From assembly GCA_027002265.1 (NCBI GenBank), contig JAMOTM010000035.1, forward strand, positions 1-35,188: 35,188 bases of DNA. Direction: 5' to 3'. Source of the DNA: Aquificota bacterium. GTDB taxonomy: Bacteria; Aquificota; Aquificia; Desulfurobacteriales; DQVG01. The number at the start of each line of letters is the position of its first letter. The stretch's first letter is position 1. The position numbers and the translations under genes are program-made. This document shows positions 226-3,947 of the stretch, one piece after another. The notes under the pieces were generated by a model. That model worked only from the letters and a program-made list of their open reading frames with translations. It was not told the DNA's origin and did no database searches.

Positions 226-900
226 TTACAGCTTCTTTAAAATTACAATCCACATAGCATCTACATTATCGTTAATTTTATCATGTGATATATTCTCTAT
301 TAAAGAACATACTTTCCATTTATTTGGATCAATTATATTCTTTATATCGTTTTCATCATAAAAACATACCCATCCTGTTCCTTTTAAGCTACCACTTTCA
401 ACATTTATAAAACTACTTTTCTTATTCTTGCTTTTTGTATAAGAAGTATGATGTTTAGAATAAGGAGTAAATAAAAAATATCCCCCGGGTTTTAAAATGC
501 GATGAATTTCATCTAAAGTTCTTTTCATATCTTTATAACTAATGTATGTAAGAGCAGATCTATCTATTATCAAGTCAAAAAAATTTTTTTCAAAGGGAAA
601 AGGTTTAGTAAAATCATGGAGTTTTAATTTTGCATTAACCCCAAATTCTTTTAAAAGCTTTTTCGCAAATTCTATAGCAATTTTGCTACCATCTATTCCA
701 TAAGCATCAAATCCCTCTTTTGCCAAAAACCATAAATGATTTCCAATACCACATCCTATATCTAAAACTTTTATGTCTTTTTTTGGTTTATTTTTTGGAG
801 CGTAACGAAAAACAAAAGATACAACAAAATCATAGGGGTACTTTGTTAGATGTTTACCTTCTTTTCTTAAATTATTCCAGATTTTAGTAAAATTCTCCAT
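226..900 (-). CDS. Class I SAM-dependent methyltransferase
   Basis: A 224-residue protein with a Rossmann-type methyltransferase fold. Motif I is VLDIGCGIGNH near residues 45-55, the acidic motif II end is YGIDGS near 68-73, motif IV is FFDLIIDRSALTYI near 107-120, and the post-motif region LKPGGYFLFTPYS follows. These place it in the Methyltransf_11/25 group. The substrate cannot be read. The start ATG has an AGAGGG site upstream. It follows the FemAB-like gene by 24 bases and so is probably co-transcribed with it and with the cytidylyltransferase fusion, which suggests a small-molecule or glycan substrate rather than DNA or RNA. That substrate idea is inference from neighbours only. Confidence 0.85.
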   Translation of the reverse strand: MENFTKIWNNLRKEGKHLTKYPYDFVVSFVFRYAPKNKPKKDIKVLDIGCGIGNHLWFLAKEGFDAYGIDGSKIAIEFAKKLLKEFGVNAKLKLHDFTKPFPFEKNFFDLIIDRSALTYISYKDMKRTLDEIHRILKPGGYFLFTPYSKHHTSYTKSKNKKSSFINVESGSLKGTGWVCFYDENDIKNIIDPNKWKVCSLIENISHDKINDNVDAMWIVILKKL

Positions 901-924: not shown

Positions 925-1896
925 TTATCCCTTTTTTATCCAATAATAATTAAGTAGATTTCCTCCAAAACTAATTTTAAAAAATCCTCTTTTAGGACTA
1001 TTGACCCCTTCCCAATCAATAATTTTAATTTTTTTTACTTTAGCTAAATATAATATTGCATCCCAAAAATTAATTGTTCCCTTAAATCTTAGTTTAATAT
1101 CTTGATTCCCTGCTCCATATAAATAATAGGCTCTATTTCTATCCCATCCCCAAATAGTTATATATATTGGAATCTCCTTATAGTAGGAAATAAACATTTT
1201 GGCTTTCCCTTTTTCTACTAAAGTTTTTATTATGTTTTCTAGTAAGGTAAGTTCACCATCGCTAACTGTAATTCCTTGATTTTTCATCATATTTTTATAA
1301 AAATTAAGAAAGGTTTCTAACTTAAGTTCTGTTTTTGTTTTTACTTTACTTTTTCTTGCTTCTTTAATATTCCTTTTTCTTAATTCTAAAAGATTATGAA
1401 ATACCTTACTTTCAAATTCATTCTTATTTTGAAGATCTGAAATATTTAAGTAGCTAGTATATCTTATATATATCTTACATTTATCCCTTTCATTTGGAGA
1501 ATGATAGTTTAACCATAAATAAGGTCTTATATCTTTAATGAAAGGATGTAAAGCTAAGTCTATACTTTTAAAATTTGTTTCTAAGTAATCCACAAATGTA
1601 TTATGTATTTCATATTCATCAAGATTTCGTTTTACTTGTTTTTGAAAAAATATCCTATTACTTAATATTACTCCATTATGAATTACAAAAACGGGTCGAT
1701 AACATTTATTATTTTTCAAAGTAAAGGAAAAATAGGCTATTTTCTCATTACCTTTTAGAATGTAACCATAAATTTTTTCCTCTGTAAAATTGGATAAGAA
1801 ATCGGGATCGGAAAAAATAGTAAAGCATTTATTCTTTGAAGATTCCTCATACCAATTTTTTATGTTACTTTCGAGAACAACTCTAAATTTTCCCAC
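925..1896 (-). CDS. FemAB-like / GNAT-fold acyltransferase (Acetyltransf_6 type)
   Basis: A 323-residue protein of the FemAB/CelD-like group, which has two GNAT folds. The C-terminal half carries the typical run: AYYLYGAGNQD, then GTINFWDAILYLAKVKK, then IIDWEGVNSPKRGFFKISFGGNL, which is the usual signature of aminoacyl- or acyl-transfer enzymes related to FemX and to exopolysaccharide-linked acyltransferases. The basic stretch ELRKRNIKEARKSKVKTKTE near residue 170 is also a family hallmark. Translation starts at GTG with an AAGGAG site nine bases upstream; no better start was seen. It lies 31 bases after the cytidylyltransferase fusion. A role in modifying a peptidoglycan precursor or surface glycan is likely by family, but the acceptor is unknown. 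Confidence 0.7.
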   Translation of the reverse strand: MGKFRVVLESNIKNWYEESSKNKCFTIFSDPDFLSNFTEEKIYGYILKGNEKIAYFSFTLKNNKCYRPVFVIHNGVILSNRIFFQKQVKRNLDEYEIHNTFVDYLETNFKSIDLALHPFIKDIRPYLWLNYHSPNERDKCKIYIRYTSYLNISDLQNKNEFESKVFHNLLELRKRNIKEARKSKVKTKTELKLETFLNFYKNMMKNQGITVSDGELTLLENIIKTLVEKGKAKMFISYYKEIPIYITIWGWDRNRAYYLYGAGNQDIKLRFKGTINFWDAILYLAKVKKIKIIDWEGVNSPKRGFFKISFGGNLLNYYWIKKG

Positions 1897-1927: not shown

Positions 1928-3760
1928 TTATTGCTCTATATTTATTAAAGCTCCTTTTATACAGGTATCGCCTTCTTTATTACTAAGATAATAGGTCATA
2001 AAAATTTTACTATTTAATACCTTTAAATCGCTATAAGCTCCGTCAAAAATATTTCCATAGTTATTTTTATAATAAATATCTATTAGATATCTCTTTTTAT
2101 CATAGGAGCTTAATACAGAAAGAGCTAAAAAGTAAGTATCTTCAAAAGGTAAATATCTATAGGAAAATAAAATATCGTTTTTATATTTTAAAGCCATAGG
2201 AGCTTGGGCTTCAAAAAATAATTTTTTCTTTTCAAAGGAAAGAAAATCTTTTGTAATAAATAAATAAATTCCATAAGGTTTATCATCTCTTCTTGTAAAA
2301 ATGTAAAACTTATCATCATATTTAACTATTGAGCTTTCATTAAATATACCCTCATCATCATTTATAAAACTATAATCAAAATTTTCAAAATCTCTTGTAA
2401 ATAAAAATATAGGGCGGGTTTTATTTTCCCCTTTTAAAGTTCCATAAGCTGGCAGGATATATCCAAATTTTTCATCATAGATAACTTTTCCATAAAATAT
2501 AATAAATTCTAAATCTTTTATTTTTATTTCTTTTCTGTCTTTAAAAATAGGACTGTCAGAAATGCTTAAAAAGGATATATGCTTTCCATTTATTACTTTT
2601 CTTGTTGCTAAAGTATATACGTTTTCTTTTGGATTTGAAAGAATTGCGTCAAGCTCATTTTCACTTTCAAAAGCTAAATTTTCTTTTATATTTAAAATAT
2701 CTTTTTCTTTTCCATCTAAAATAAGATCTAAAGGTATTTTTTTGTAAAATACTTTTCCACCTTTACCATGAATTTGAGTTTTATCTTTTATTCCTCTTCT
2801 AAAGTATAAAAATAAATTATCTTTATAGATTTCATAAGTAGGAAAAGCATCATATATATTTTCTTGATAAGGAGTTATATAAAAAACTTTTTCTTTAAAT
2901 TCTTTAATTCCAAAACCTTTTTTTTCTATTAAATCCTTAACTATTTTTTCCTTTTCTTTTATAAATGGCGGAATATAAATATAAAATGTTTTATCATAAA
3001 GACCTTTTTGATAAACATGGGCGTTTATATTTTTTAGCTCTGGCTTTTTTTCTAAAAGCTTTAAAATGTTTTTTAATGAATAAGCTTTTTTTTCTTTTTT
3101 TAGCTCTTCATAAACTTTATTATGAAACTCTAAATCTGAAGGAGTATCTATGGACATTCTATGAATAACCTTTTTTAAGTAATTTGGGGTTGGAAGAATA
3201 AGAGGTTTTAAAAATTTCCTAGCTTCCTCCTTGTATCTAAACACCGGAAATTGATGTTCCCTAAGTTCTTTAGTATCTGAATATTTATCTCCAATCTCCC
3301 AAACTTCCCTTTTACATACCATTATGCCTTCTAGTGAATTTTTCTCGTCAAAATATACAATATTCTTATCTTTAGAGATTTTTAAAGAAGTAATTAAACG
3401 CTCTAAAGCGTTTTTATCAAAACGAGGGCAATCTCCAGAAGCTAAAATACAAATATCTGCCTTATATTTTTTTGCAGCTTGGGTAAGTCTTCCTACTACA
3501 TCATCTATATCTCCTTTATAAAAAAATATTTCAATACTTTTTTTTGGTTTATACTTTTTCTTAAAATTTTTTAAAAATTCTTTTAGCTTTAGATTCTTTT
3601 CTTCATAAGGAACTGCTAAAACAATTTCGTCTATTTCATCTACTTCCAATAAGGAAAGTAAATTCCACTCTAGAAGAGTTTTATCTCCTATTTTTTTTAA
3701 ATGTTTCTCTGGAAGTCTAGAAGAAGAGAGTCTTACTGGAACGAAAGCTACTACTTTCAA
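1928..3760 (-). CDS. SpsF/CMP-KDO-type cytidylyltransferase fused to a sialidase-like beta-propeller domain
   Basis: 610 residues in two parts. Residues 1 to about 230 are a nucleotidyltransferase of the CTP_transf_3 (SpsF/KdsB/NeuA) group: VPVRLSSSRLPEKHLKKIGDK is the nucleotide-binding signature, followed by DEIVLAVP, then GDIDDVVGRLTQAA and ILASGDCPRFD, matching the SpsF pattern. The usual member ends here. Residues about 260-610 are a separate domain of repeated short beta-strand motifs, for example DDKFYIFTRRDDKPYGIYL then FITKDFLSFEKKKLFF then NDILFSYRYLP, resembling blades of sialidase- or GH43-like propellers. Catalytic residues were not assigned. The start is TTG preceded by AGGAGG. 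It heads a minus-strand cluster with acyl- and methyltransferases. The first domain is secure; the second is a fold-level guess. Confidence 0.65.
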   Translation of the reverse strand: MKVVAFVPVRLSSSRLPEKHLKKIGDKTLLEWNLLSLLEVDEIDEIVLAVPYEEKNLKLKEFLKNFKKKYKPKKSIEIFFYKGDIDDVVGRLTQAAKKYKADICILASGDCPRFDKNALERLITSLKISKDKNIVYFDEKNSLEGIMVCKREVWEIGDKYSDTKELREHQFPVFRYKEEARKFLKPLILPTPNYLKKVIHRMSIDTPSDLEFHNKVYEELKKEKKAYSLKNILKLLEKKPELKNINAHVYQKGLYDKTFYIYIPPFIKEKEKIVKDLIEKKGFGIKEFKEKVFYITPYQENIYDAFPTYEIYKDNLFLYFRRGIKDKTQIHGKGGKVFYKKIPLDLILDGKEKDILNIKENLAFESENELDAILSNPKENVYTLATRKVINGKHISFLSISDSPIFKDRKEIKIKDLEFIIFYGKVIYDEKFGYILPAYGTLKGENKTRPIFLFTRDFENFDYSFINDDEGIFNESSIVKYDDKFYIFTRRDDKPYGIYLFITKDFLSFEKKKLFFEAQAPMALKYKNDILFSYRYLPFEDTYFLALSVLSSYDKKRYLIDIYYKNNYGNIFDGAYSDLKVLNSKIFMTYYLSNKEGDTCIKGALINIEQ

Positions 3761-3947
3761 ATTTTCCTCCTAATACATTTGGGCCATGTTATAAATTTAT
3801 TTTAAAAATTTTATAAAATATTTTTAAGAATTATAATTGTAATTATAAAAGTTAGTAACTATTAAAAAAGACTTGAATTTTAATTATTTGGGTTAAAAAG
3901 ACTTACGTAGGAAGTTTAAAAAATATAGATATTAACAAAATAAAAAT

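Follow-up and report, generated by a model that had tools for sequence, protein, structure and literature searches.

Our analysis revealed that a single gene in a 35,188-nucleotide stretch of an Aquificota bacterium genome (contig JAMOTM010000035.1; hereafter, the window) joins an SpsF-type cytidylyltransferase to a C-terminal beta-propeller that is predicted to have a sialidase-type fold (Table 1). We regard it as an even proposition that the product works in the cytosol as a two-domain enzyme, activating an acidic sugar (ulosonic, nonulosonic-acid-type) for a surface glycan. The sequence-only reading that drew attention to this gene gave its coordinates exactly but left the minus strand unstated, and the motifs it quoted (PVRLSSSRLPEKHLKKIGDK, GDIDDVVGRL, and ASGDCPRFD) are all present in the window protein as given. 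The fusion gene is genuine: a ribosome-binding-site-like AGGAGG precedes it, the same fusion occurs in G001, and purifying selection acts on both of its parts. Specifically, G001, the only other genome of the genus, encodes an uninterrupted 608-aa fusion that is 74% identical to the window protein and starts at the same position, with ATG. Codon comparison of the two genes gave a dN of 0.15, a dS of 1.24, and a dN/dS of 0.12 for the N-terminal part, and a dN of 0.19, a dS of 0.87, and a dN/dS of 0.22 for the propeller part; these low ratios indicate that the cytidylyltransferase and the propeller have both been kept by selection.

Table 1. Positions of the fusion gene, its parts, and the genes that follow it, numbered along the window.
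Feature	Positions	Strand	Details
Fusion gene, SpsF-type cytidylyltransferase and predicted sialidase-fold propeller	1928..3760	-	610 codons plus stop; same architecture in G001 (L004)
Shine-Dalgarno-like AGGAGG	3766..3771	-	5 nt before the TTG start of the fusion gene; read from sequence
Cytidylyltransferase domain (PF02348), residues 5-222	3095..3748	-	Pfam match; motifs kept in alignments
Linker, residues 246-300 (~55 residues)	2861..3025	-	Alignment with related cytidylyltransferases
Predicted sialidase-fold beta-propeller domain, residues 301-610	1931..2860	-	Model, fold search, stand-alone homologues
s-Asp-box pattern TRDFENF, residues 455-461	2378..2398	-	Pattern match
s-Asp-box pattern TKDFLSF, residues 503-509	2234..2254	-	Column with an s-Asp-box in 13/13 aligned family members
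Downstream gene, sub-threshold Acetyltransf_6 (FemAB/GNAT-like)	925..1896	-	31 bp from the fusion gene; E 0.0027, 18.3 bits, cut-off 22
Third gene, SAM-dependent methyltransferase	226..900	-	Identity to other methyltransferases: 35% (C55 cluster, L041) and 32% (L087)

The N-terminal domain belongs to the cytidylyltransferases of the SpsF/CMP-Kdo superfamily, as the sequence-only reading had proposed in assigning it to the SpsF/CMP-KDO-type nucleotidyltransferases, and its motifs are intact. Residues 5-222 match Pfam CTP_transf_3 (PF02348) with an E value of 2.7e-14 (53.9 bits, cut-off 22.6). Further, the domain contains the RxxSxRxPxK loop, the GDCP aspartate, and the DTPxD motif, residues to which we presume catalytic roles belong, and R10, S13, R15, P17, K19, D110, C111, P112, D205, and D209 were invariant in alignments of five and of seven sequences. 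Among solved structures, 6oew (3.9e-28) and CMP-Kdo synthetases come nearest to the cytidylyltransferase subfamily profile. At NCBIfam, the window protein falls outside the KdsB, PseF, and NeuA equivalogs: its best KdsB subfamily score was 42.3 bits, versus a cut-off of 193, no PseF match was listed for it, and the three subfamily members that were scanned lay under every KdsB and PseF cut-off. We infer that the domain makes a CMP-ulosonate from CTP and a free sugar acid.

Pfam gave no match to residues 246-610, even at an E value of 10, so the propeller claim was decided by a structure model and a fold search rather than by family search. These two analyses, which the sequence-only reading had suggested, were run on residues 281-610, and the predicted fold is a propeller. 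Specifically, the AlphaFold model, built with a 15-row alignment (L106 among the rows), is nearly all beta, with a pLDDT of 91.7 and a pTM of 0.91. The top two Foldseek matches were the putative neuraminidase/pseudaminidase structures 3h6j (E 4.2e-10) and 2w38 (E 1.9e-9) from P. aeruginosa, followed by NanH and trans-sialidases; viral attachment glycoproteins were also in the list and, like the trans-sialidases, share the fold and are uninformative on function. A second aligner gave Z scores of 33.6 for 5hx0_A (310 residues), 30.5 for NanH, 30.1 for 2w38, and 29.2 for the cytosolic human Neu2 (1vcu_B), and across the best 50 matches listed, Z ranged from 29.1 to 33.6, with sialidases aligned over 290-310 residues, along the whole length of the domain. 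The model thus predicts a sialidase-type propeller fold for the C-terminal domain. Where the earlier reading had left a choice between sialidase and GH43 propellers, the former fits better, as Foldseek TM scores were mostly 0.59-0.70 for sialidases but only 0.44-0.50 for GH43/GH32 chains, and GH43 (0.47-0.50) was rejected as the fold. Six blades are assigned because the match is full-length, not from a count of blades in the model.

Sequence comparisons of the propeller point the same way in part. The propeller family profile matches 5hx0 by sequence (E 1e-6), and the window protein contains three s-Asp-box patterns, under the motif definition given in an excerpt of PMC2716378, versus a shuffle mean of 0.74 (3.5% of 2000 shuffles reach three). 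Full Asp-boxes were found by pattern in 5 of 11 stand-alone propellers, and the window protein has none. No Pfam or NCBIfam sialidase profile scored above its cut-off, the best among the homologues being BNR_2 at 25.4 bits versus 31.4, and an NCBIfam scan of the whole window protein left the C-terminal part without a match. Searches with the C-terminal domain of PHROGs and, by sequence, of the PDB returned nothing usable, as did the L053 query, and the domain had no match in phage and plasmid records (tblastn) or in two scans of viral contigs.

Whether this fold retains a sialidase active site was considered across 13 propeller members, the most divergent of which is 24% identical to the window protein. 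Their alignment has 30 invariant residues, including R321, H331, E369, D371, N474, E475, R490, Y563, Y576, and D578, while R535 is kept in 12 of the 13. The reference was the GH33 sialidase PG0352, for which the part of PMC10553830 available to us describes Arg194 (RIP), Arg213, Asp219, Glu382, Arg398, Arg460, Tyr488, and Glu504. Mapping by motif and spacing from sequence, rather than by superposition, suggests R321 as the equivalent of Arg213, E475 of Glu382, R490 of Arg398, and R535 of Arg460, with 15 residues between E475 and R490 (16 in PG0352) and 45 between R490 and R535 (62 in PG0352). Tyr488 has two invariant candidate equivalents, namely, Y563, 28 residues beyond R535 (the PG0352 spacing), and Y576, within GAYSDL. 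The RIP-motif arginine is absent from all 13 members, which have Ala or Ser there (residue 305), and no conserved Asp stands at the GH33 acid/base spacing after R321 in these 13; H331, E369, and D371 are invariant candidates for the acid/base role. We take the GAYSDL context of Y576 to resemble the nucleophile context of Neu2, and with Y576 as nucleophile, the Glu supporting the RIP Arg would seem to have been lost too, Tyr590/Tyr591 being in its place, which would fit a joint loss with the RIP arginine. Given the loss of that arginine, although candidates for the Glu/Tyr pair and for two of the three GH33 arginines are present, the propeller is, to judge from these residues, no standard GH33 sialidase.

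The fusion appears to be confined to one genus. A full-length query against 151 genomes (its own and relatives) returned one other full-length match, in G001, and a scan of named genomes matched only DQVG01000026.1, which is the G001 contig and is identical after reverse complementation. Across 391 genomes, the fusion was seen in two, the window genome and G001, and nowhere else; none of 25 genomes from the G368 phylum had it. The earlier impression of an unfamiliar architecture was, within these searches, well founded, and no paper among the matches listed describes a cytidylyltransferase-propeller fusion. As separate genes, propellers are more widespread. A two-sequence profile of the C-terminal domain found two strong relatives in the 391 genomes, in G368 and G230, together with 10 further weak matches (E 0.003 to 0.5). 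G368 and G230 belong to one small order, in which 13 of 19 genomes have a propeller match, that of G407 (76% complete) being partial only and that of G406 split in two pieces; at G406 C39:48338-49272 (L091 region), this stand-alone gene is apparently broken, with internal stops. Five more distant matches (G149, G180, G227, G342, and G365; E 1e-12 to 3e-4), listed alongside four known ones, lie in open frames of 297-548 aa that contain no cytidylyltransferase and begin, by eye, like secreted or plain propeller proteins; L106, the row used in the model alignment, is one of the five. Separately, in f199 (G368, G391, and G392; L064, L082, and L083), the propeller lies directly behind a 222-aa protein that is metallopeptidase-like by eye; these three genomes have no sugar cluster beside the propeller and no high-scoring member of the cytidylyltransferase subfamily, which points to a use of the propeller without that partner.

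Within the order of G368, homologues of both parts of the window protein occur as two genes. The cytidylyltransferase subfamily profile (seven sequences) scored more than 300 bits in 11 of the 19 genomes, with the G403 gene found as two pieces on two contigs, and compared with the fusion, these enzymes either have an extended tail (318-339 aa) or, in G395, carry a PseG-like domain (511 aa). Both genes are present in nine genomes, and in six of these (G230, G394, G395, G402, G403, and G404), they lie less than 10 kb apart, overlapping by 4 bases in G403 and separated by 22 bases in G404; in G397, G405, and G406, they are on different contigs. Four genomes (G368, G391, G392, and G407) have the propeller without this cytidylyltransferase, two (G396 and G401) have the reverse, and four have neither, such that co-occurrence over the 19 genomes is not significant (Fisher p 0.32). 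A naive binomial for the six neighboring pairs among nine gives 3e-10, a value that treats related genomes as independent and on which we therefore do not rely.

In G394 and G395, the propeller gene lies in a biosynthetic cluster. In G394 (L089), the order is propeller, aldo-keto reductase, SDR, cytidylyltransferase, NeuB-type synthase (PF03102 E 2e-55), one more ORF, a PseG-like gene (84 bits, cut-off 154), two genes assigned by eye, the first ATP-grasp-like (unmatched in Pfam at 1e-5) and the second a methyltransferase, a transketolase N-terminal part (E 1e-50), and a transketolase C-terminal part (by eye). In G405 (L142), the cytidylyltransferase is followed by one ORF, NeuB, PseG-like, and ATP-grasp-like genes, and the propeller is found on a separate contig, while in G395 (L087), the propeller adjoins a NeuB-type gene, 6.3 kb from the 511-aa cytidylyltransferase-PseG-like fusion. 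The stretches read in G402, G403, and G404 contain the pair and no NeuB-type gene by motif. Two NeuB proteins that were scanned scored 178-183 bits against the N-acetylneuraminate synthase cut-off of 400 and 168-177 against the PseI cut-off of 340, so far below these equivalog cut-offs that the sugar is not predicted. As an observation in its own right, L089 9563-19999 and L142 7658-13049 share a divergent short NeuB-type synthase (290-299 aa) alongside PseG-like, ATP-grasp-like, and methyltransferase genes, and clusters of this type, which in L089 include the transketolase genes, possibly make an undescribed ulosonic acid.

Given that the same parts occur in other bacteria as separate, often neighboring genes, the two domains quite probably serve one ulosonate-building pathway. 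In such a pathway, the N-terminal domain would convert CTP and a free ulosonic acid to the CMP-ulosonate, and the propeller would bind that same sugar and act at or close to the anomeric carbon, with Glu475 and Tyr576 (or Tyr563) at the sugar and Arg490/Arg535 against the carboxylate. Its task could be to supply the right anomer, to hydrolyze conjugates that are wrong or have stalled, or to hand the sugar on, and a single chain would hold both active sites close to each other. Catalysis by the propeller itself is a tentative proposal, to which we give slightly less than even weight. In its fullest form, the proposal describes a CMP-ulosonate synthetase that carries its own sialidase-type domain and thereby edits, anomerizes, or transfers its own sugar in the cell, with the NeuB/PseG-like/transketolase clusters of the related order making an undescribed ulosonic acid; this combination is rather unlikely, and, if true, would mean that a sialidase fold was recruited from breakdown to biosynthesis.

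A credible alternative, if one that we consider somewhat doubtful, is that the propeller has no catalytic role and serves for sugar binding or as a scaffold, in which case it would hold the ulosonic acid, its CMP form, or an acceptor glycan, or else tether partner enzymes, leaving CMP transfer as the only chemistry. A common fold proves no function, and the loss of the RIP arginine in all 13 members, with no Asp at the canonical place, is possible for a lectin-like derivative. However, a mere scaffold would need none of the 30 residues that are invariant over the 13 sequences, GH33 Glu/Tyr candidates included, and the six-bladed propeller sialidase Amuc_1547 (GH181), as described in an excerpt of PMC12018670, is active despite missing one Arg and the Tyr. 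If the propeller is catalytic, it could conversely recycle sialic-type sugars as an ordinary GH33-like sialidase, with the fusion coupling release to CMP re-activation. The whole-length fold match to GH33 enzymes, among them a cytosolic one (Neu2), and the presence of Glu, two Arg, and Tyr candidates are in line with this reading, but we find it very improbable, given the absent RIP arginine, the lack of an Asp at the canonical spacing, and the failure of every Pfam sialidase model to reach its cut-off. Nor does hydropathy give a sign of export (the maximum 19-residue mean of the window protein is 1.12, i.e., no strongly hydrophobic stretch), and the stand-alone copies in G394 and G395 sit in biosynthetic clusters.

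Those same clusters bear on the reading that the N-terminal domain activates a non-ulosonic sugar, or that the propeller serves an unrelated step, with the fusion reflecting operon proximity only. The KdsB and PseF scores of the three scanned members would allow it, as would the f199 genomes and some of f100, where no sugar cluster lies beside the propeller, and to our knowledge, transketolase genes such as those in L089 are not known from nonulosonate clusters. Against this, a NeuB-type gene follows the cytidylyltransferase directly in L089 and after one ORF in L142, and stands beside the propeller in L087. Further, an excerpt of PMC7371886 describes a Vibrio pseudaminic-acid cluster without NeuA in which an SpsF-like domain is fused to an aldo-keto reductase and followed by a dehydrogenase gene, and in which the SpsF-like domain is proposed as a stand-in for the missing NeuA; this set, as far as that excerpt describes it, parallels the gene set of G394. 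We consider a non-ulosonic sugar or an unrelated step improbable.

Sialidase-fold proteins have mostly been studied as removers of sialic-type sugars, while here, the fold is joined to the kind of enzyme that activates such sugars, and split versions lie beside NeuB-type genes in two genomes (G394 and G395). An unannotated propeller family thereby becomes a testable candidate step of ulosonic-acid biosynthesis, with a concrete two-domain protein at hand. A precedent of sorts is the bifunctional NeuA, in which a CMP-sialic acid synthetase is joined to a domain acting on the same sugar; that domain is a sialate O-acetylesterase there and, as proposed, a propeller here. The window domain resembles the bacterial sialidases 2w38, 3h6j, C. 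perfringens NanH (8ub5), and Dfer_1899 (5hx0) in predicted fold (Z 30-34), Asp-box-type motifs, and the spacing of its candidate GH33 Glu and Arg, yet it differs from them in being fused to a nucleotidyltransferase, in showing no sign of export, and in having the RIP arginine replaced, at 13-18% identity. Relative to SpsF-type cytidylyltransferases (nearest solved, 6oew) and their known fusions, the family, the motifs, and the habit of fusing to a pathway enzyme are alike; the partner in the Vibrio fusion is an aldo-keto reductase, according to the excerpt of PMC7371886, whereas here it is a sialidase-fold propeller, fused only within one genus among the genomes searched.

The evolutionary histories of the two halves fit each other, with G395 near both, although both trees carry long-branch warnings. 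Among 46 cytidylyltransferase domains, the window N-terminal half joins G001 (100/100) and then the CTP-SpsG (PseG-like) fusions of G016 and G395 (100/95); G016 has such a fusion and no propeller match. Among 15 propellers, the C-terminal half belongs to a six-member set (99/100) that also contains the G395 propeller and three from f199, being nearer to the latter with weak support (80/67). The beginning of the linker lines up both with the tail that ends stand-alone cytidylyltransferases and with the opening of the PseG/SpsG-like domain of CTP-SpsG fusions. The simplest history would start from a G395-like cluster, with loss of the PseG-like part and attachment of the propeller. Separately, L012 1489-3528 (+) and eight other loci encode SpsF-type cytidylyltransferases fused to a class-III aminotransferase (677-688 aa; Aminotran_3 E 8.4e-50, for L012 only), and these nine sequences form one clade (100/100).

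The fusion gene has no NeuB gene near it in the window, and its own genome, of 1.4 Mb, carries three NeuB-type genes (L040 on C74, L041 on C55, and L042 on C20). Those of C74 and C55 score over the N-acetylneuraminate synthase cut-off and that of C20 over the PseI cut-off. In this assembly, which is 95% complete, a limit on any cytidylyltransferase count, PF02348 matches above the cut-off were found besides the window gene only on C20 (KdsB-like by eye) and C74 (PseF-like, 179.7 bits, cut-off 205.7). With three synthases and few cytidylyltransferases, the window enzyme may serve a second NeuB-type synthase. The C55 gene lies in a cluster with NeuC, PseB-like, and PseC-like genes, and the C74 gene is in a similar cluster by eye; a PseG-like match on C55 fell under its cut-off. 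A continuation of the window contig into the C55 cluster was not supported, as they share no end sequence (longest common stretch, 9 bases, equal to that of a control end). In G001, flgK (FlgK_D1 E 1e-35) follows the fusion gene on the same strand after 60 bases, and the window carries fliP, flgE-like, and flgD genes ~6-10 kb from the fusion gene; a link to flagellin glycosylation is a lead, not a result. Elsewhere in this genome, contig C71 (L067 4875-6995, minus strand) has a 706-aa ORF that combines a GlmU-like part (NTP_transferase, hexapeptide repeats) with indole-3-glycerol phosphate synthase (IGPS E 1.1e-48), which oddly brings together the synthesis of a cell-wall precursor and that of tryptophan.
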